In this document: piece after piece, positions 7,951 to 37,417 of the stretch
Numbering within the stretch: the first letter of the stretch is position 1
How the letters are laid out: each line of letters opens with the position of its first letter
DNA from: a bacterium HR30
GTDB lineage: Bacteria; Desulfobacterota; Binatia; HRBIN30
Direction of reading: 5' to 3'
Assembly: GCA_002898795.1 (NCBI GenBank)
Contig: BEIG01000022.1
Coordinates: 1-37,868, forward strand
Length of the DNA: 37,868 bases
Program-made: the position numbers and the translations under genes
Notes under the pieces: generated by a model
Seen by the model: only the letters and a program-made list of their open reading frames with translations
Database searches by the model: none
Told to the model about the DNA's origin: nothing

Positions 7951-9408
7951 TTAAATCAACGACTCCACCGACCGCCGGGCAATCTCGAACCACGGCGTGG
8001 GAAACAAACCGAGGAGGAACGTTCCGGCTAACGTGGCCACCAAGGCGGCGAACAAATAGGGGCGAGCTGATGTGGCTTCCGCCTCGACCCCACCCTCGGC
8101 CATGTACATCTTCACCAACACGCCGACGTAATAGTACACGGACACGAGGCTGTTCACGACCGCAATCACCGTAAGCCACACGTAGCCCGCCTCGAGCGCA
8201 GCGCTGAACAAGTAAAATTTCCCCATAAAACCGGCCAGAGGCGGCACCCCGGCAAGGGAGAGCATGAAGACCGTCATCGCAAAGCCCAAGAAAGGGCTAC
8301 GCAAGCCGACGCCGGCCCAGTCATCCAAGTCCTCGTGAGGCTGCCCTCGACGACCCAAGGCGATGACTACGGCGAAGGCCCCGACGGTCATGAACGTATA
8401 AACCGCCAGGTAAAACAACACCGCTGCGTTACCGTTCTCTCCACCTGCAACCATACCGACGAGAAGGTACCCAGCGTGTGCAATACTGGAGTAGGCGAGC
8501 AAACGCTTGATGTTGCGTTGGACGAGCGCACTGACATTTCCCACCGTCATTGTCAGAACGGCCAGGATCCAAAGCGCGCCGCGCCAGTCGCCCGCTAGAG
8601 GGCCCAAGCTATCCACAAAAACCCGAACAAACGCCGCAAAGGCTGCTGCCTTGATCCCTGCCGCCATAAAGGCCGTTACGGCAGTAGGGGCGCCTTCGTA
8701 CACGTCTGGAGCCCAACTATGAAACGGCGCGGCCGCCACCTTGAACCCAAACCCCACAAGCAGCAACGCTGCGCCGATCGTCACCAATAAGCGTTGCTCT
8801 CCAGTTCCGGTCGCAGCCACTTCACCAATCCGCGGCAGAAGCGTTTCACCGGAGGCGCCGAACAACAACGCGATACCCAGCAGTAAAAATCCCGAGGCAA
8901 ACGCTCCCAGGATGAAGTACTTCAGTGCGGCCTCGTTGGATCGCACCTGCGTTCGCCAAATACCCGCAAGCGCATACGCGGCAATCGACATCACTTCGAG
9001 ACCGAGAAAGATCACAATCAAGTCCACCGACGTCGCCATCAACACCATCCCGACCGTCGAGAACAATAGAAGCGTGTAATAGTCGCCGGAACGAATGTCA
9101 GTGGTCTCGAGGTAATTCATCGACAGCAACAGCGTGAGCCCCGATCCGACTGCGAACAAAATGGTGAAAAACAACCCGTAACGGTCGAGCACCAACGTGC
9201 CAGCCAGAGTGCTACCGCTCTGGTTCCATAAGAGTGCGGCGCACACTGCTGCTACAATCAAACCGATCAAGCCAAGCCAACCGAGAGCGTCGTAATCGGG
9301 CCCCTCGGAAAACAAGTCCGCCACCAAAACCAGCAATGCAGTTGCGCCGATCACCATGAGGGGCAGCAACGGCAGCCAAGCGACATCGGGAAACGCCAGA
9401 GTCGTCAT
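7951..9408 (-). CDS. nuoN: NADH-quinone oxidoreductase subunit N
   Basis: MTTLAFPDVAWLPLLPLMVIGATALLVLVADL...LEVMSIAAYALAG...APDVYEGAPTAVTAFMA...KRLLAYSSIAHAGYLLVG. The true start is ATG 9408; the 705-aa track ORF is extended into nuoM. Confidence 0.95.
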   Translation of the reverse strand: MTTLAFPDVAWLPLLPLMVIGATALLVLVADLFSEGPDYDALGWLGLIGLIVAAVCAALLWNQSGSTLAGTLVLDRYGLFFTILFAVGSGLTLLLSMNYLETTDIRSGDYYTLLLFSTVGMVLMATSVDLIVIFLGLEVMSIAAYALAGIWRTQVRSNEAALKYFILGAFASGFLLLGIALLFGASGETLLPRIGEVAATGTGEQRLLVTIGAALLLVGFGFKVAAAPFHSWAPDVYEGAPTAVTAFMAAGIKAAAFAAFVRVFVDSLGPLAGDWRGALWILAVLTMTVGNVSALVQRNIKRLLAYSSIAHAGYLLVGMVAGGENGNAAVLFYLAVYTFMTVGAFAVVIALGRRGQPHEDLDDWAGVGLRSPFLGFAMTVFMLSLAGVPPLAGFMGKFYLFSAALEAGYVWLTVIAVVNSLVSVYYYVGVLVKMYMAEGGVEAEATSARPYLFAALVATLAGTFLLGLFPTPWFEIARRSVESLI

Positions 9409-10949
9409 CGAGGACGCCCTCCCTCCGCCACACAAACCGCTTCTTCTCCACACGATGCCGACGCCTGACGGACTCGAGATTCTACCCTTTCCAAGGTCAC
9501 CCGCACCGCAGGCTCCATCCGTACCAGCAATGGCTTTGGATAGAGGCCCATGAATAGGAACAACACCACTAGCGGCGCGAACATGGCAATCTCGCGAGGC
9601 GAGAGATCTTTCAGGGAGGCGTTTTGGGGATTTGACAAGGGGCCGAACATGACCCGCTGAAACATCCATAAAAGATACACGGCGCCCAGGATGACCCCTA
9701 TCGTCCCCAAAACGGCAGCCAGCGGAAAACGGCCAAACGCACCGAGCAAAATCAAAAACTCCCCAACGAACCCATTTAACCCTGGCAGCCCAACGGAAGA
9801 CAGCATGACAACCAGGAAAAAGGCACCGTAAACCGGCAGCCGGGCCCACAACCCGCCAAACTCCGCGATGAGACGCGTGTGCCGCCGCTCGTACAGTGCC
9901 CCCACCGCAAGAAAGAGCCCACCGGTGGACAGCCCATGGTTCAGCATCTGATACAAGCTCCCCTGCACTCCCTGTAGGTTGAGAGCTGCCATGCCCAGCA
10001 TGACAAAGCCTAGGTGGCTCACCGAGGAATAAGCCACGAGCCTCTTCAGATCTGGCTGTACCATGCACACGAGAGCCCCGTAAATGATTCCGATCACCGC
10101 CAGAGCCGCGACGACAGGCATGGCGTCAACGGCGATTTCCGGGAACAACGGGATGGCAAAGCGGAGAAATCCGTAAGTTCCCATCTTCAGTAAGATCGCC
10201 GCCAGGATCACGGATCCACCTGTTGGCGCCTCAGTGTGGGCATCCGGAAGCCAGGTGTGCAGCGGGAACATCGGCACTTTGATCGCAAAGGCCAGGGCAA
10301 AGGCGGCAAAAAGGAGCTTTTGTACCTCCGGCGATAGCCGCAACTGCAGAAGGTGCTCCCAGGCGAAACTGTACTGCCCGATCTGTTGCTGGTGGGCGAT
10401 CGCCAAGTAAATGATCGCGACCAACATCAGCAGACTTCCGGCCATGGTATACAGCACCAATTTGATGGCCGCATAAATTCGATGCTCGCCGCCCCAAATG
10501 CCGATGAGAAAGTACATCGGAATGAGCATGAGCTCCCAAAACACGTAGAACAGGAACAGATCGGTGGCGAGAAGCGCCCCGAGCATGCCCGTCTCCATCA
10601 CGAGCAGGAGAACCAAGTACTCCTTCACCCGTTTCTCCACGTCCCAGGCCTGCAAGAACACGATAGGCATCAGGAAGGTAGTCAGCACCACCAGGAAAAG
10701 ACTGATGCCATCCACCCCCAGCAGATAGTGAATCCCGTAGCGCGGGATCCAGGCAGCCCGCTCGGTCCACTGCAATTCCCCTTTAGCCGCATCGAACGCG
10801 AACAAGAGCCCCACCGAAAGCGCGAACGGCACCAGCGAGAACACGAAAGCTGCCCGCCGCAACGCGCGCACTTGCTCTCTTGGGATCGCCAACAACATCA
10901 ACGCCGCCATTAACGGCGTGAATACGATGAGCGTCAGCAATGGCATCAT
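9405..10949 (-). CDS. nuoM: NADH-quinone oxidoreductase subunit M
   Basis: WIPRYGIHYLLGVDGISLFLVVLTTFLMP, FWELMLIPMYFLIGIWGG, PLHTWLPDAHTEAPTGGSVILA, LKRLVAYSSVSHLGFVMLG. Confidence 0.97.
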   Translation of the reverse strand: MMPLLTLIVFTPLMAALMLLAIPREQVRALRRAAFVFSLVPFALSVGLLFAFDAAKGELQWTERAAWIPRYGIHYLLGVDGISLFLVVLTTFLMPIVFLQAWDVEKRVKEYLVLLLVMETGMLGALLATDLFLFYVFWELMLIPMYFLIGIWGGEHRIYAAIKLVLYTMAGSLLMLVAIIYLAIAHQQQIGQYSFAWEHLLQLRLSPEVQKLLFAAFALAFAIKVPMFPLHTWLPDAHTEAPTGGSVILAAILLKMGTYGFLRFAIPLFPEIAVDAMPVVAALAVIGIIYGALVCMVQPDLKRLVAYSSVSHLGFVMLGMAALNLQGVQGSLYQMLNHGLSTGGLFLAVGALYERRHTRLIAEFGGLWARLPVYGAFFLVVMLSSVGLPGLNGFVGEFLILLGAFGRFPLAAVLGTIGVILGAVYLLWMFQRVMFGPLSNPQNASLKDLSPREIAMFAPLVVLFLFMGLYPKPLLVRMEPAVRVTLERVESRVRQASASCGEEAVCVAEGGRPR

Positions 10950-10976
10950 GCCTCTCCCCGCCTTCTCCCCTTTCCC

Positions 10977-12932
10977 TCAACCTCGGCCAAGGAAGTACCC
11001 GAGGAGCAACAGCGTGCCCACCAACAGCGAAAGCGCGTAGTGCTGCACGTTCCCCGTTTGCCAACGGCGCAACCAACGCCCTGTTTCTTGCACCACTCCT
11101 CCAGCACCGTTCACGGCTCCGTCGACAACAGCAACATCGAATTGGCGCCACAGCACGTGGGCCAACTGAACGATCGGGCGCACGAACAAGGCAGCGTACA
11201 GCTCGTCGACATAGTATTTGTTCCACAAAAGCTGGTATGCCCTCCGCCAACGCGCGGCCAGTTGTTGCGGCGTTTGTGGGGCCTGGATGTAGAAGCGATA
11301 GGCAACCGCAATGCCTGCAAGCGCCACGAACACCGACGCACCCATAAGGGCAACTTCGAGCGCGAGGTGCGGGTGACCACCGGCGTGCGCACTGCCCCCC
11401 ACAGCAGGAGCAAGGAAAGCGCTGAAGCGATCGCCCCAGGCTAAAAACTCGGGTAATCCTACGTAGCCACCAACTACGGACAGCACGGCCAAAACCACAA
11501 GGGGAATGGTCATGGTACGCGGTGACTCGTGCAAATGCGCCCTCGTGTGGGCGTCTGCCCGGCACTCCCCTAGAAACACGAGGAAAAAGAGCCGGAACAT
11601 ATAAAACGCGGTAAGCCCAGCACCCACAAGGGCCAAGCCCCAAAGCATTGGCGCCTCGGCGTAAGCCCTAGCTAAGATCATGTCCTTACTGAAGAAACCG
11701 GCAAAGCCCGGCACCCCGGCAATCGCCAGCGTCCCCACCAGGAACGTAGCGTAAGTGACTGGCAGATAGCGCCGCAAACCACCCATTTTGCGGATGTCTT
11801 GCTCGCCGCCCATGGCGTGAATCACGCTGCCGCTTCCCAGAAACAGCAAAGCTTTGAAAAACGCATGGGTCAACAAATGGAAGATTCCCGCGGAAAACGC
11901 CCCCACGCCCACGGCCAAAAACATGTACCCTAACTGACTGATGGTCGAATAGGCGAGAACCTTTTTGATGTCCGTCTGCACAAGGCCAATCGTAGCCGCG
12001 AACACCGCAGTCAGCGCCCCGACAGTGGCCACCACGTCCAACGAAATCGGTGCCAACTCATACAACGCGTGCAGCCTGGCAATCATGTACACGCCTGCCG
12101 TAACCATTGTGGCCGCGTGAATGAGGGCGCTCACGGGGGTAGGTCCGGCCATGGCATCGGGCAACCAGACGTACAAAGGCAATTGCGCCGATTTTCCCGT
12201 CGCACCAACGAACAGCAGTAACGTCACGCCGGTCACGACGGCTGGCGACAACTGTCGGCCACGCTCGGCAATTTCGCTGAAGCTGAAGGTGTGGCTACCA
12301 GGCCCGAAGCTCCAAAACAGCCAGAAAATACCAACTAAGAAAGCCGCATCGCCAACTCGGTTCACGATGAACGCCTTTTTGCCCGCACTCGCATTGGCGT
12401 CGTTGTCGTACCAGAATCCAATCAGCAGGTAGGAGCAAAGGCCGACACCTTCCCATCCGACGAACAAGAGTAAGAGGTTGTCAGCCATGACGAGGACCAA
12501 CATGGCCACGGTGAACAGGTTGAGGTACGCGAAGTACCGAGCGTAACCTGGGTCGTCGTGCATGTAGACCACGGAATAAAGGTGGATGAGAAAGCCCACA
12601 CCCGTGACCACCAGGATCATGACGGCGCTTAACGCGTCGACCTGAAGGGCAAACCGTACATCTAAGCTGCCCACGGGCAGCCAGCTCCACAGGACTTGTT
12701 GCAACACCAGCCCCGGCGGTCCTAACCAAACACGGATAAAGGCCACCAGGGAGACGATGAACGCCGCAGCCACAACAGACGGCCCGACCACACTTACCGC
12801 GGTTTTCCCAACCCGCCGGCCCAGAAAAATGTGGAACAACACCCCGAGCGCGGGCAGGAGCGGAATCCACCACAGAAACGTAACGTTCTCCACCACCACT
12901 GCGGGTTGGACTTCGTGCATCTCGCCTACCAC
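10977..12932 (-). CDS. nuoL: NADH-quinone oxidoreductase subunit L
   Basis: [78 protein letters not shown]. Start 12932 or 12920. Confidence 0.97.
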
Positions 12933-13234
12933 CGGAGCAAGTTGACTTCGTCGGCGTTGACCGTCTCGCGGTTCCGGAATACCGCCAAAATAATCGCCAA
13001 TCCCACCGCTGCCTCAGCAGCCGCAACCGTCATCACAAAGAACACCATCACTTGCCCATCCATCGCCTGTTGCTGTCGCGCAAAGGCGACGAACACCAAA
13101 TTGACGGCATTGAGCATCAGTTCGATCGCCATGAAAACAATGATCAGGTTACGCCGCACGAGGACACCCAAAGCGCCAATCGTGAACAACAGGATACCCA
13201 GAACGACGTACCAAGAGGCTGGAACCGTGGTCAT
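12926..13234 (-). CDS. nuoK: NADH-quinone oxidoreductase subunit K
   Basis: 102 aa; [43 protein letters not shown]...[24 protein letters not shown]. Confidence 0.97.
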
Positions 13235-13740
13235 CGTGGAATTTTCCTCGCCAGAACTACGGCGCCCACGATGGCGCCTAGTAACAACACTGAGGTCACT
13301 TCAAACGCCAGTGCGTGCCGCGTGAACAACCGCTCCGCAAGAGACTCCACCGACCCAAAGCTTGGAGTCACGGCAACTTCCACTCCCGGCCCAGGCATGG
13401 TCGGCAACCCACGCAGGGCCACGGCCCCCAGGACAAGGGCGAAAACCACCGCGAACGCCCCAGCAATGGTTCGTTGGCCTGGCCGAGCCGTTTCTACCGG
13501 CTCGTGCTGTAAATTGAGCAACATGATCACGAACAAGAACAGCACCATGATCGCGCCGGCATACACGATCACCTGCAAGGCCGCGATCATCCGCGCGTCG
13601 AGCAAAAAGAACATCACGGCTAAGAGGAATAAGGCCACAACTAGCGAAAGCGCCGAACGGACGGGGCTGCGGGCCAACACCACTCCGAGGCTAAACAGCA
13701 CCAACGGAACAGAGAGTAAAAAGAACAATAGTGGGCTCAA
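13231..13740 (-). CDS. nuoJ: NADH-quinone oxidoreductase subunit J
   Basis: 169 aa; [55 protein letters not shown]. Confidence 0.96.
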
Positions 13741-13744
13741 CTCC

Positions 13745-14836
13745 TCACCCCTGGATCCACAAGAGTACCAGCGCCGTCACCACCAAATTCGCTAACCCCA
13801 GCGGCAACATCACTTTCCATCCAAACCACATGAGCTGGTCGTAGCGTAGGCGCGGCATGGTCCAACGAACCAGAACCTGCAAGCAGCAAAAAATGAACAC
13901 CTTGACCATGTAGGCCGCTACTTGCAGCAACACCACAACGACGTGGGGTAACGGAACGCTCCAACCCCACGGAAACACGAACCCCTCGCTCGCAAGGAAC
14001 GGTACCTGCCACCCGCCGAAGAAAAAGGTTGTCACCACGGCAGACACCACGGCAATCTCGACGAAGTCCGTCATGAAAAACATCAGGTACTTGATGCCTG
14101 AGTACTCCGTGAAATACCCGCTTACGATCTCCGATTCCCCTTCGGGCAGGTCGAACGGTGCTCGCTTCGTCTCCGCAATGCCAGCAATGAGCAACAGCAA
14201 AAACGCGAGCGGCTGATAGAGAATCCCCCACGCCGGAATCCAACCACCGATCATGTGTCCTTGCCGCCGCACGATCTCTTGAAAGTCCAACGAACCATAG
14301 GTCAGCACTACTGCCACCACCGCCAGGCCCATGGCCAACTCGTAAGAAATCATCTGGGCCGAGCCCCGAATTCCCCCGAGCAAAGACAGGCGGTTATTCG
14401 AAGCCCACCCCCCGAGAACAACGCCGTACACTCCCAGCGAGGTCATGGCCAGCAAAAACAACACACCGACGTCGATCTCCACTGCCTGCAGGTTCACCAC
14501 CATGTCGCCGATGCGCAGCCGATCACCAAAGGGCACAGCCGCGAACGCTACGATGGCTGGAAACAAGGCCACGCAGGGAGCCAACGTGTGCAGCAGACGA
14601 TCCACACCCCTCGGGATCACATCCTCCTTCGTGAGAAACTTGATCGGATCCGCCAATAAGGTGTTCACGAGACCCGCACCCGCGAAACCGAAAATGGCAG
14701 CCCGGTTCGCTCCGATCCGGTCTTGAATCAGCGCGCTACCCTTGCGCTCCACCCACCCGAGGATGCCCGCCAAGTTGAGTACCATGCCGATGACGATCAG
14801 CGCTTTGATCACCGAAACTACAACCACGGTGAGCAT
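13745..14836 (-). CDS. nuoH: NADH-quinone oxidoreductase subunit H
   Basis: GWVERKGSALIQDRIGANRA, LADPIKFLTKEDVIP, ETKRAPFDLPEGESEIVSGYFTEYSGIKYLMFFMTDF. Confidence 0.97.
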   Translation of the reverse strand: MLTVVVVSVIKALIVIGMVLNLAGILGWVERKGSALIQDRIGANRAAIFGFAGAGLVNTLLADPIKFLTKEDVIPRGVDRLLHTLAPCVALFPAIVAFAAVPFGDRLRIGDMVVNLQAVEIDVGVLFLLAMTSLGVYGVVLGGWASNNRLSLLGGIRGSAQMISYELAMGLAVVAVVLTYGSLDFQEIVRRQGHMIGGWIPAWGILYQPLAFLLLLIAGIAETKRAPFDLPEGESEIVSGYFTEYSGIKYLMFFMTDFVEIAVVSAVVTTFFFGGWQVPFLASEGFVFPWGWSVPLPHVVVVLLQVAAYMVKVFIFCCLQVLVRWTMPRLRYDQLMWFGWKVMLPLGLANLVVTALVLLWIQG

Positions 14837-31617: not shown

Positions 31618-31756
31618 CGTTCTGTTCTTCCGGAATCGTCTGCGAACCCGGCCGGAAATTTTCCGGGCCGCAAGCAACCAACTTCGGGTACTCGAAATGG
31701 CTGGTTCGCCACTGATGCTTGCAGTGGTCCCTCACGGCCAGTACGCTCTTTGGCCG

Positions 31757-32419
31757 ATGTCCTCAAAGACTTGCATCGCGAGCCTGAGCAGCATGCTCGT
31801 GCTTGCCAGTGCTGCCCTTGCACAGCTTGGCAGCGTCGGACCCGTGCGGGACACCGGCGGGCCGCTGAGAGAATCGAGCCAAGCGGTGCGCGATGCAACG
31901 GGCGCTGTGCGAGAATCGAGCCTGCCCAACGATGGAGACTTCCGTCGACCGCTCAGCGGGCTCCCCGTCAGCGCTGGTAGCAGGAGCGTTTACGGCAGCG
32001 GGTCGGTACGCGATGCGACTGCAGGATCCGTCGCCGACATTGGCCGCAGCAGCTCGCTGCCGGTGTTCCTGTTCGAATACCCCCTGAATCCGAATAGCGG
32101 AGAAGGTTTGGAGTCGCTCGAAACCAGTCTTCGGACCCTTACCCCCAGCGAAGAGGACCAAACTACGCCAGAAGAAACTGCAAGCAAAGACACGGAAGTT
32201 GCTTCCGATATGGTTACGGAGTCCACGGCCGAGAGCGAGTCGCCTGCCGGCGAGGGCGAGGTGGCTCCCATCAGGGAGCCGTCACAACGCGACATCTCCA
32301 TGCATGACGAGGAGGTGGAACACAGTCTCACCGAAGATTTGAGTTCCGACCAGTCTGCCTCTTCGGTCTCACGTTCCGATGAAGGCGAGCTGCTGCTGGG
32401 TGGCGAACCAACGCAGTAA
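31757..32419 (+). CDS. Putative secreted protein with 7-residue repeats and an acidic Ser/Glu-rich C-terminus
   Basis: Signal peptide MSSKTCIASLSSMLVLASAALAQ, then GPVRDTG-GPLRESS-QAVRDAT-GAVRESS; low-complexity acidic tail. No family recognised. Confidence 0.65.
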   Translation: MSSKTCIASLSSMLVLASAALAQLGSVGPVRDTGGPLRESSQAVRDATGAVRESSLPNDGDFRRPLSGLPVSAGSRSVYGSGSVRDATAGSVADIGRSSSLPVFLFEYPLNPNSGEGLESLETSLRTLTPSEEDQTTPEETASKDTEVASDMVTESTAESESPAGEGEVAPIREPSQRDISMHDEEVEHSLTEDLSSDQSASSVSRSDEGELLLGGEPTQ

Positions 32420-32881
32420 CCCCGGAGCCCGTGGGGGAATGGAGGCCACCTCGATTGCGGCCACCTGCCCCGACTTGAACGGCATCTGCAGCTTCGCCGA
32501 ATCTCCGACCAGTAACCAAGAAGCCAACCGGCCCATATCCGGCTCGTGTCCTACCAGCACGATCGCCGAAGCCGTGTTGTATTCCACCAAGGAAAGCACC
32601 AAGTCTTCGGGCAAGTGACCTGGGGCGAGTGCTGCGTGCTCTCGGACTTCGGCCTTTAGGGCCACGCTCAGGAGCTGAGCCGTTTCTCTCGCTCGCTTGA
32701 GTGGGCTCGCCAACACGACGTCACACCCCACTCCCAACCGCCTCAAGCCCCGCGCGGCAAGAATCGTGTCCTCCCGTCCCTCGCGAGTCAACAACCGAGC
32801 CGCATCGTCGGCCCCCTCGCGCGCCGGCTCTGCCTGCGCGTGGCGGACCAAGTAAAGCATCTTCCCTCCAGACCTGTTCAT
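32369..32881 (-). CDS. sixA: Phosphohistidine phosphatase SixA
   Basis: MLYLVRHAQAEPAREGADDAARLLTREGREDTILAARGLRRLGVGCDVVLASPLKRARETAQLL...ASAIVLVGHEPDMGRLASWLL: RHG motif and SixA layout. Confidence 0.93.
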   Translation of the reverse strand: MNRSGGKMLYLVRHAQAEPAREGADDAARLLTREGREDTILAARGLRRLGVGCDVVLASPLKRARETAQLLSVALKAEVREHAALAPGHLPEDLVLSLVEYNTASAIVLVGHEPDMGRLASWLLVGDSAKLQMPFKSGQVAAIEVASIPPRAPGLLRWFATQQQLAFIGT

Positions 32882-33972
32882 CCGTTCCCTCGAGTCGGTT
32901 TCTTCGGTCGCGGGACCCCGCCTCGCTGCGCCTGGCGCTCGAACTTTACCAGTAGCGTGTAATACGCTGCGCTGTTGAGCGCCCCATCCACCAAGCGCTG
33001 GGCCTCAGCGCGACAAGCCTCACCACATGACTTCGACCCCCGCTTCGTTCGTGTTTTCCCAGCAATTTCCAGCAACGTCTGCGCTCGTGCCAGCGCCTCG
33101 ATGAGGGCAAAAGGGGGATCCACGAAACTCCCCCCGCTTCTGCGCATGAAGAGGAGAGCCGTATTTTTCAAGCAACCGAGTAACTGTCCAAGTTTGTTCT
33201 CCTCCAAGCCCAAACGAACCGCGGCGTCTTCACCGCGCAGGCGAGCCAAGGCGGCGGCCAGGTGTCTTCCGCGCGCGCCCCGTCGTTCCATGCCGACGAA
33301 CTTCGGAACGCGCGCATACACCGCACGCAGGCCACGCTCGAACTTGGAGGCGATGGTTGGCCGCAGTGCGAACTGCTTTCGCAAAGCCTCGGCGATTCGC
33401 CGCAAGTCCCTGCGCGTCCCGCCCCGTAGCTCAAGCTCCACCTCACGGTAACGCAACACACGCTTTCCATTACCCGACCCGACCGCCACCCGGTCGAACG
33501 CTAATTCCAAAACTTCCCTGCGCCTTTTCCCTGGCTGAACATACACCCCAAAGCAACTCCTTCGCACATGGGTGGCCAACACAGGGTGCAAGGGTCGGCC
33601 AGCGACCACCGCAGCAAGGTGCGGCACCATCTCTGGTGGTAACTGCCTCAGGGGTAAGCGCGGACGCTTATCCAGGAGCACGGTTTTTTCTGGCCGCTCA
33701 TGAACCTGGCCCGCGAGCCTGCCCGCCCACTTCGCGGTGAGCTCCCAGCGGCGCTTCGCCCCGTAGGAGCGGATCCTGAGCGCAACACCTGAGCGCAGAA
33801 GCGACCACTCTGCGGTATCCAAATACACCGACCGGAGCCACGCGTCGCCCTTCGAACGCACGGTGTATGGGCCAAGTTGCCCACCGCGCTGCAGCCAACG
33901 CCACAACTGGTCGTCGGGCGCGTCGAACTTGGCCTCCACTTCCCAATCCACGTTCGAGGTGGTCCTAGGCAT
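32878..33972 (-). CDS. CYTH-domain protein (triphosphate tunnel-like) with a divergent helical C-terminus
   Basis: N-terminal VEAKFDAPDDQLWRWL (ExExK-like), SVYLDTAEWSLLRSGVALRIRSYGAKRRWELTAKW, LAFDRVAVGS, REVELELRGGTRRDLRRIAEAL. The C-terminal half is Arg/Lys-rich and helical, possibly CHAD-like but without a clear motif. Confidence 0.8.
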   Translation of the reverse strand: MPRTTSNVDWEVEAKFDAPDDQLWRWLQRGGQLGPYTVRSKGDAWLRSVYLDTAEWSLLRSGVALRIRSYGAKRRWELTAKWAGRLAGQVHERPEKTVLLDKRPRLPLRQLPPEMVPHLAAVVAGRPLHPVLATHVRRSCFGVYVQPGKRRREVLELAFDRVAVGSGNGKRVLRYREVELELRGGTRRDLRRIAEALRKQFALRPTIASKFERGLRAVYARVPKFVGMERRGARGRHLAAALARLRGEDAAVRLGLEENKLGQLLGCLKNTALLFMRRSGGSFVDPPFALIEALARAQTLLEIAGKTRTKRGSKSCGEACRAEAQRLVDGALNSAAYYTLLVKFERQAQRGGVPRPKKPTRGNG

Positions 33973-33978
33973 CGGGAC

Positions 33979-34959
33979 TTAATTTTGCCAGCGAGCAACC
34001 AGCGTAGCGGACAGCACTCCAGCTCCGGCCAACTGCCCGAGGGACAACCTAAACTCGTCACCTTTGTTCTTTGCGAGCGAACCGGCTGACGATCGTAGCG
34101 GGCGTTTAAATAGGGATTGCGGCAATCCAACGTTGAATTGCAGGTGCTCGATTAATTGTTCCGCCACCAGTCCGGCTACAGGGTTACCACTCGCATCCGC
34201 AGGGTAAAACGAGCGGACCCGTTCTTGGCGTATCCCAGCGACTTCGCGGTACTCTCGCCAACGGCCCAGCCAAATTGGATGCTGCAAAAAAGGAGCCTCG
34301 ACCTGAGCGTACACATGGTCGATCAGGCCAGAGTTCGCGTCGAAATACAAAACCGCCCAGACAATGGGCGACTGCAGATGTCGAGCGTACGTAACCCGTA
34401 ACTTTTCCCACTGCTGCTCTTCGGTCGCTTCCCGCCCGACGTATTCGAGGTTCACCCCGTCCATCTCTGCCAACACGAACGGCAAGCCAAACGAGATCGC
34501 CGAGCTGATCCCGTGAAATTCGGTAAACATTTTTTCCTGCGGATCGTCCACCCATCGGCCGCCACGGAACATCCACGACACCCGGCCATCGTACCCGAAC
34601 AGGATTTCCTCCCGTAATCCGATCGACTCCATGCGCAGGATCGGTCCCTGGTGCAACGGTTGTTTGTGAAAGAAAATCGTTTCGGAGGTGGCGTCGCCCC
34701 GTGCATCAAAAATGGTGAGAGTCGACACGAAGGTTACGTCCACTAGCGCCCGCCAGGCCTCCCAGCCTCCCGCAGCCTCAATTGCCTTCCTCAACACCCT
34801 TCCGGCTTCACCGGCCGGTATGTGCGGCTCGCGCCACACCGCTTTTGGCGGCGTACGCTCCTCCTTCGTTGCGTCGCGGCAGGCGCTCACCGAGAACACC
34901 GCAACACACGCCAACCAAACTTTCCACCAGTAACTTTTCGGGTAACATCCCCGGCTCAC
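33979..34959 (-). CDS. Putative lipoprotein of unknown function
   Basis: GTG start overlapping the cytochrome stop (GTGA); hydrophobic WKVWLACVAVFSVSAC with a lipobox-like VSAC; about 300 aa beta-rich mature part. Family not firmly recognised. Confidence 0.75.
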   Translation of the reverse strand: MSRGCYPKSYWWKVWLACVAVFSVSACRDATKEERTPPKAVWREPHIPAGEAGRVLRKAIEAAGGWEAWRALVDVTFVSTLTIFDARGDATSETIFFHKQPLHQGPILRMESIGLREEILFGYDGRVSWMFRGGRWVDDPQEKMFTEFHGISSAISFGLPFVLAEMDGVNLEYVGREATEEQQWEKLRVTYARHLQSPIVWAVLYFDANSGLIDHVYAQVEAPFLQHPIWLGRWREYREVAGIRQERVRSFYPADASGNPVAGLVAEQLIEHLQFNVGLPQSLFKRPLRSSAGSLAKNKGDEFRLSLGQLAGAGVLSATLVARWQN

Positions 34960-35831
34960 GGCAGTTCTCGAAGGTAATCCACGATTGCACGAATCGTGGT
35001 CCGGTCCAATACCGGGGCAAAGTGGGGCATGGCAGGCTCGTGCTCTCGTAGCATGTGCATGATCGCCTTGCGGATGTCCTCTTCCGAACGGCTTTGAAAG
35101 TACGACCGATCGAACCGTATCGTCGGCAAACGTGCAACCTCGCCAATCACGGCACGAACACCCCGGCCGTCGTCACCGTGGCACACGGCACACACTCGCT
35201 GGTACAGCTCGAACCCGGGAGACAGCAACCGCACAAACGCCGCTAGAGCACGCGCTTCATCGTCACGGATCCGGGGCACCAACGCAGGCATACCGGAGCG
35301 CCCGTGCCGCACCACCTCGATCAACAGTGTGTCCGGGACACTCCGTTGCCACGAAGCATCCATTAGGTTGCGCGGGCGCTTTACCCCACTTGGGAGTGTG
35401 GGTGGCGGTTCGCCATACCACCCGTGGCAATCTGCACACCGTGCCCGGTACAAGGCCCAGCCGCGCTCTACCTGGGGCCAGCGTACTCGCGCCAATCGGC
35501 GCAGGTGCTCGAGAATCTCGCCGGTCTTTGCCTGCAAGTCGGCCCACTTTGCCGGATCCGGCGCCAACGACAAACGCTGACCGCTGTACAATCGCTCGAC
35601 CAATTCTTCAGCCTCGTAGGCACGCAGGAAACCCTCCCGCAGATTGCGTGGCGGGCGCGCGAAGCGCCCTGCGTCGACACCATCGCCCCGCGCCTCTACG
35701 CCGTGGCAGTTGGCACAATAGCGGGCATACGCCTCCCGGCCTACCTGAGCGTAAGCTGTCGGCCCCGTAGCTGTGCCAACCAGCAAGGCTCCAACGCCAA
35801 ACAGAAATCTAATCCAGCCACCACGTTCCAT
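34956..35831 (-). CDS. Secreted triheme cytochrome c
   Basis: Signal peptide MERGGWIRFLFGVGALLVGTATGPTAYAQ; three CxxCH motifs: YARYCANCHG, YRARCADCHG, YQRVCAVCHG. Confidence 0.92.
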   Translation of the reverse strand: MERGGWIRFLFGVGALLVGTATGPTAYAQVGREAYARYCANCHGVEARGDGVDAGRFARPPRNLREGFLRAYEAEELVERLYSGQRLSLAPDPAKWADLQAKTGEILEHLRRLARVRWPQVERGWALYRARCADCHGWYGEPPPTLPSGVKRPRNLMDASWQRSVPDTLLIEVVRHGRSGMPALVPRIRDDEARALAAFVRLLSPGFELYQRVCAVCHGDDGRGVRAVIGEVARLPTIRFDRSYFQSRSEEDIRKAIMHMLREHEPAMPHFAPVLDRTTIRAIVDYLRELP

Positions 35832-36677
35832 CCTTTACCTTGTAGCCCTGCACGCTCTCGCCAACCACACTCCTGCCGAGCCCGGCGCCAAACGGGTACA
35901 CCTACGAGTTCGAACCGCGCGCAGCAAACAAAGCAATGCAGTTGGTTGCCTTGTTCGCCATGCACACGGCCTGCAGCTTTGTGGCCGCGGCAACCTCGAG
36001 CAGTTGCCGTAGCGTTCGGCTTTGGTCCATTCAGGTCAGGTCATCACCAGCGTTGCACGGCTCACTGCTGAGCAATTCCGGGCACTGCTGCGGTAGAACC
36101 TACCGGCCCGAAGACCCCTTCCATCACGCCGGAAACCCCAGCGCCGAAGCGGCAGGGTCACAAAGGATCGAAAGGCTGGTCGTTCGGTTGCTGGTCACCC
36201 CAGAGGAATTTCAGCGGGCGTGCCTCGGACGGCATCTGGGCTACGACCTGCCTCCGCAGGCACCCTTCGCGTGAGCCGAACGTGTTTTGTCCTCAACGGG
36301 GAGCCAGAGCAAAAACAGGCATTCCACAGGTCCGCAATCGTCGGCTGTGCGCACCAGTTACCGTTGCTTTCGAACATTTTCTTTCTTCGATCCCGCGCGA
36401 GTTCGTTTTCCTGCGGCTCCGCCGTGGCCACGGTTTCCCACTCCCGACAACAACCGCGCAACTTTTCCCGAACGAAAACCGCCGTGATCGCCTCGACGCC
36501 AGCGAGTATCGTTGGAAAGGAATGAATCGTGCCGCGGTTGCGTTCCAGAGAACGTTAGGTTCGAGCGCTGCATGTACCCTGGAGATGGCCAATCAACAAA
36601 CAACGAGAAAGACCTTCGTTCGTCGGCCGTCTCGCTTTTCAGGGCAAAGCCTGGCCGTTTTTGCCTTGTTCGTCGCC

Positions 36678-37124
36678 CTAGGCACAGCGAGCCAAAGACC
36701 CAATTTGCGCTGCACCGTCCACTGCTAACGGAGCAGCACACGTGCGAGAGACGCGACCCGCCAGCGACTCTTGGCGACCCGTTCCGCCAAAGCTTTCGGC
36801 GGCCACAATGGCTTGTGCTCCGTGATCTCCGGTATGGCAATAATCCCAGCCAAAGCTAGTCGACGGTCCTCGCGCGCCCACCCCCGGTAGCGTGGCTCCG
36901 TGTTTAACCCACTTTCCTTCTTTTACGGTTTCGACAACTGTGACAACCTTCTCAGTGTGGTGGACCATCCGAAACCAGCCCTCGGCAAACTTTTCCTCTG
37001 CAATCTGCCGCTGCCACCACGCCCCGCAAACACTGCCCGTTATGTTGCTGGTAGCGTTAGCAGGGTGCACGTCTCCTGCGTCACTCGCTGCTGTAGCTTT
37101 CAACGAATTCCAACCCTGTACCAC
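36678..37124 (-). CDS. Possible small hypothetical protein (tentative)
   Basis: GTG-start ORF of 148 aa containing a protein-like stretch WWQRQIAEEKFAEGWFRMVHHTEKVVTVVETVKEGKWVKHGATLPGVGARGPSTSFGWDYCHTGDHGAQAIVAAESFGG. No family recognised. Confidence 0.3.
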   Translation of the reverse strand: MVQGWNSLKATAASDAGDVHPANATSNITGSVCGAWWQRQIAEEKFAEGWFRMVHHTEKVVTVVETVKEGKWVKHGATLPGVGARGPSTSFGWDYCHTGDHGAQAIVAAESFGGTGRQESLAGRVSRTCAAPLAVDGAAQIGSLARCA

Positions 37125-37417
37125 GCACGATTAGCCTCCCCTGGCAGTCGGAGTATTGCCGGGAAACGCACCACTTTTCGATGCGGTCGTACGAGCAAGG
37201 CCACGTGCACTCACTCAGGGCTAGCGCGCCCTGCTTGCACCCCACGATCCGTGGCTCGGGGCCAAAATGCAATTTGCCATCTAGCAAAACGCTTTCGAGC
37301 CTTACCTAAAGCGCGGCCCCTTCCTTGCCGAGCCCTCGCCAGGCTCGCAACAAGAAGAACAAAGGCGCTCTGGTTCAGAACCACTGGCGTCGCAGCGCAA
37401 ATAAAGGAGACAAGCTA

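Follow-up and report, generated by a model that had tools for sequence, protein, structure and literature searches.

The four genes described here probably form a composite operon specific to their genus, in which a CYTH (triphosphate tunnel) protein and a SixA-type phosphatase persist after the loss of polyphosphate genes, beside an envelope cytochrome and an envelope lipoprotein. They lie near one end of the window (the whole stretch of DNA analyzed, 37,868 nucleotides), which is one entire contig of a 3.73-Mb genome of 95.8% completeness. The genus (Binatia) was sampled as three species (G000, G001, and G002; each 95–96% complete, all probably MAGs), and gene models in GC-rich DNA were based on codon usage. 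The best-supported reading is the co-transcription, which we infer, of functionally separate proteins. The features of the array are as follows:

34956–35831, minus strand: secreted triheme cytochrome c, 291 aa (CANCH/CADCH/CAVCH, Sec signal peptide, Cytochrome_CBB3 match)
33979–34959, minus strand: lipoprotein, 326 aa (SAC lipobox; probable LolA/LolB-type fold)
32878–33972, minus strand: CYTH (triphosphate tunnel) protein with a degenerate C-terminal half-CHAD, 364 aa (CYTH match and alignments)
33307–33972, minus strand: CYTH domain of this protein, residues 1–222 (aligned with homologs and with E. coli ygiF, 5a60)
32881–33306, minus strand: half-CHAD remnant of this protein, approximately residues 223–364 (alignment; below Pfam detection)
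32369–32881, minus strand: SixA-type phosphohistidine phosphatase, 170 aa (His_Phos_1, TIGR00249, and solved SixA-type matches; alternative start at 32860)

The preliminary description had placed four genes of these families on the minus strand at 32369–35831, with a GTGA overlap between the cytochrome and lipoprotein genes (34956–34959), a 6-bp gap between the lipoprotein and CYTH genes, and an ATGA overlap between the CYTH and SixA genes (32878–32881), all of which is borne out by the sequence. The last overlap is uncertain, as it depends on the choice of SixA start, and an internal ATG at 32860, which opens the conserved MLYLVRHA, has a stronger ribosome site (GGAGGG). Across the window, six of the 21 same-strand neighbor pairs overlap or lie ≤12 bp apart, three of them in the array and three in a large membrane-protein operon (7951–14836), and the packing of the array exceeds the window background. 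A single promoter upstream of the cytochrome gene would probably serve the whole array; a promoter and terminator scan of that upstream region returned nothing convincing.

At its downstream end, sixA overlaps tail to tail by 51 bp (32369–32419) with a forward-strand ORF (31697–32419). This antisense coding overlap is found in all three genus members, as is the product of the ORF, which evolves fast, is probably secreted, carries repeats of VRD/ETGG..RES-like motifs, and has no family match. On the other side, between the cytochrome gene and cfa (35936–37362), lie the decayed remains of two genes that are intact in G001, one for a MerR/B12-binding regulator and one, frameshifted, for DUF1365; of an amine-oxidase-like gene between the two, the window shows no clear trace.

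The four-gene order and tight spacing recur in all three genus members, and in G001 and G002 the array has the same convergent neighbor gene as in the window. The GTGA overlap between the cytochrome and lipoprotein genes is common to all three species, and the remaining two junctions span ~12–28 bp in G001 and G002. With a shared strand and overlaps or short gaps across species, the four genes are an operon-like array, and the earlier claim of operon-like packing stands. For all four genes dN/dS is below 1 (well below 1 in most comparisons), with dS saturated, and on these values, the saturation notwithstanding, the genes are probably functional.

Nearly every predicted gene of the window is matched collinearly on a G001 contig, most at ~80–98% identity (a 37-kb block), and the array genes rank with its most diverged members (cytochrome 70%, SixA 77%, CYTH 54%). 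Because the whole window is collinear, the conserved order within the genus represents inherited background rather than evidence of joint function or selection, and we rejected genus gene order as independent functional evidence. This collinearity agrees with a chance juxtaposition, in which a rearrangement brought together same-strand genes with no functional relation that were then inherited with the block, as do the divergence of the four genes, the differing compartments of their products, and the other partners that each gene has elsewhere. We regard such an origin as rather unlikely, given that all three junctions have stayed at ≤~28 bp, and the GTGA overlap has been kept, in three species whose array proteins are only 43–76% identical. 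On the same grounds, co-transcription at least seems to have been maintained.

Gene neighborhoods in relatives speak both ways on the grouping described earlier: order and packing are shared within the genus, whereas outside it the four genes are scattered over separate loci. There, ppx, CYTH/CHAD, and sixA genes are contiguous in G003, G004, and G012, ppx-CYTH-sixA occurs in G009 and G011, and the fuller arrangement ppk1-CHAD-ppx-CYTH-sixA occurs in G016. In G006, ppk1 and pst genes lie beside CYTH/CHAD-sixA, and several relatives have their CYTH/SixA loci near pst-phoU. A related-locus search using the CYTH protein alone gave no match. The CYTH and sixA genes of the array derive from an ancestral phosphate/polyphosphate locus of this kind (ppk1, ppx, CYTH/CHAD, and sixA, often beside pst-phoU).

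PPK1, PPK2, Ppx/GppA, and CHAD were not detectable in any of the three genus genomes, while most relatives and the control genomes gave matches. The PPK/PPX test with PF02541, PF02503, and PF03976 likewise gave none in G000–G002 and matches in most relatives. Incomplete assembly is an unlikely cause of the same four families being absent from all three genomes, since each is ~95% complete, and the genus has instead probably lost PPK1, PPK2, Ppx, and CHAD, though it may have a polyphosphate kinase of a novel kind. Among 20 genomes, PPK was present in all 10 that bear CHAD versus four of the 10 without it, a split with a one-sided chance of ~0.005 by counting, uncorrected for relatedness. Three further relatives (G007, G010, and G017) likewise have no detectable Ppx, PPK1, or PPK2, which suggests repeated loss of polyphosphate genes within the class.

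The CYTH family match to the window protein (4e-10) is accompanied by retained metal/substrate residues (E11, E13, K15, E177, E179, and K210). The E-x-E-x-K motif (E11/E13/K15) and the acidic metal-site pair E177/E179, which aligns with E160/E162 of E. coli ygiF, are invariant in six homologs. On this sequence evidence, the protein is probably a short-chain triphosphatase which, its catalytic tunnel being intact, would hydrolyze short triphosphates in the cytoplasm, presumably PPPi or similar by-products. An AlphaFold model of the protein was poor (pLDDT 47), too low for a fold search.

The same protein has an extra C-terminal half, the degenerate half-CHAD, which went unmentioned in the preliminary description. 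In the genus the protein measures ~355–364 aa, compared to 540–558 aa with a full CHAD in G003, G004, and G012, and by alignment the second CHAD four-helix bundle is missing. PF05235 (CHAD) found no match either in the window CYTH protein or in the genome. The H-x2-R-x3-R polyphosphate motif of the first bundle is not kept in the genus; where relatives have LHDMRVAVRRLR, the window CYTH protein reads LGQLL-GCLK in the alignment, and none of the three genus members has the His. In CHAD proteins, the residues of this motif contact polyphosphate and mutating them lowers binding (PMC6537752). Between genus members, the C-terminal half is 26–43% identical versus 51–59% for the CYTH domain and, by these identities, diverges faster. 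The ancestral CYTH/CHAD protein would have been reduced to its CYTH enzyme plus a half-CHAD that is decaying. The pairing of CYTH and SixA had been taken to suggest polyphosphate or phosphohistidine metabolism, of which the polyphosphate reading is sound as heritage, in view of the ppx, CHAD, ppk1, and pst-phoU loci of relatives, but not for the genus as it is now: with PPK1, PPK2, Ppx, and CHAD undetected and the half-CHAD lacking its polyphosphate motif, that reading fits the ancestor and not the window organism.

SixA matches His_Phos_1 (1e-11) and sixA TIGR00249 (8e-20), the latter at 71.3 bits and just under the 74.5 cut-off, while its homologs in G003 and G012 score above it (93.0 and 96.6 bits). 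The catalytic RH and second His are retained (LVRHAQAE and LVGHEPDM, shared by the three species and aligned to 3f2i), and the window protein is probably a phosphohistidine phosphatase. In E. coli, NPr and Ndk are reported targets of SixA (PMC7948535, PMC6282199, and PMC12934123). The genus has an HPr-family gene, the product of which is a possible substrate, and SixA may dephosphorylate phosphohistidine proteins such as HPr/NPr or Ndk.

Both CYTH and SixA thus remain under apparent purifying selection with intact active-site residues though PPK/PPX are gone, a state compatible with the pair having taken a new role (e.g., PPPi clean-up or the control of histidine-phosphorylated carriers) with a respiratory link through co-expression with the cytochrome. 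The presence of HPr would suit this proposal, as would the association of cytochrome homologs elsewhere with stress and low-oxygen-type genes. The more distant G010, however, also keeps CYTH without PPK and does so without the four-gene array, and we consider the proposal improbable. The same holds for its stronger wording, in which the orphaned CYTH-SixA pair was recruited into an envelope electron-transfer operon that ties PPPi/phosphohistidine hydrolysis to respiratory state.

Turning to the envelope pair, the cytochrome matches Cytochrome_CBB3 (2e-30) over three stretches, corresponding to three CBB3-type heme domains, and would carry periplasmic electrons. Its homologs are widespread across the class at other loci, where they adjoin universal-stress, CBS, pyruvate:ferredoxin oxidoreductase, or cytochrome oxidase genes. 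The lipoprotein had no Pfam or NCBIfam match, none of its seven homologs had a useful Pfam match, and a search of its profile against solved structures (PDB) by sequence matched none. Its predicted structure, a model of moderate confidence (pLDDT 62.6), led Foldseek to LolA-type proteins (best E 7e-8, TM ~0.43–0.55); judged from this model, the lipoprotein probably has a LolA/LolB-type fold and may be an envelope lipid- or lipoprotein-binding protein.

Homologs of the lipoprotein are present in G007, G008, G010, and G012, four further members of the order, and in an even sample of 297 phylum genomes full-length matches were seen only in the window genome and G007, so within the sample the lipoprotein appears essentially restricted to the order. 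In each of the four genomes with homologs, which belong to other families, a PolyA_pol/CCA-type gene directly follows the lipoprotein gene, with selA and/or selB nearby in G007, G008, and G010. The genus retains the PolyA_pol/CCA-type gene, but on another contig. A selenocysteine at a TGA inside the G007 lipoprotein match (a gene beside selA/selB) was considered and rejected, as the match extends beyond the stop codon that ends the gene model. Within a record titled Luteimonas (L113:5860-8270), the genes for two lipoproteins related to that of the window lie ~600 bp apart, with identities to it of 28% and 25%.

The preliminary description had also raised, as speculation, a redox-linked phosphate/polyphosphate module. 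In such a module, the cytochrome and lipoprotein would sense or drive redox state and CYTH and SixA would adjust polyphosphate or phosphohistidine in response. Tight packing in three species and the inheritance of CYTH/SixA from a polyphosphate locus are in keeping with it, but PPK1, PPK2, PPX, and CHAD were not found in the genus, the polyphosphate-binding motif is lost, the cytochrome and lipoprotein genes sit at separate, unrelated loci outside the genus, and the products are predicted in different compartments. We judge this proposal very unlikely. Under the preferred reading of a composite operon, the cytochrome and lipoprotein genes would have come to lie upstream of the CYTH-sixA remnant, and the envelope pair and CYTH/SixA would act independently.

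If so, this is a lineage that lost both polyphosphate synthesis and breakdown, in which CHAD, the part that binds polyphosphate, is decaying but the CYTH enzyme and SixA have been retained. The functions of CYTH and SixA would then be separable from polyphosphate, providing a natural test of their role without it, and the case cautions that CYTH plus SixA alone are insufficient to infer a polyphosphate module.

Each component resembles a known system in part. The cytochrome is akin to periplasmic class I multiheme cytochromes c with CcoP-like domains, sharing the three CBB3-type domains and having CcoP as its closest solved sequence; unlike CcoP, it is apparently soluble and secreted, with no cbb3 oxidase nearby. 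The lipoprotein has a predicted half-barrel resembling that of LolA/LolB-type lipoproteins (P. gingivalis LolA3, 9tp6; LolA superfamily, 3buu), from which it differs in its ~10% identity, the TM of ~0.43–0.55, the lack of a sequence-family match, and an extra C-terminal region. SixA has the RH motif, second His (VGHEPD), and similar length of the TIGR00249 family and its solved members (PDB 1ujb and 3f2i), although it scores below the family cut-off. The CYTH domain aligns with the N-terminal CYTH of E. coli YgiF, a CYTH-CHAD inorganic triphosphatase (PDB 5a60/5a61; phmmer 1.4e-13), with the metal-binding Glu conserved, whereas the CHAD that follows is halved and degenerate in the window protein. 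The closest likeness in gene arrangement is to the ppk1/ppx/CYTH-CHAD/sixA locus of related Binatia, in which CYTH and SixA are adjacent in the same order; in place of its ppx, ppk, and full CHAD, the window genome has the cytochrome and lipoprotein genes upstream.
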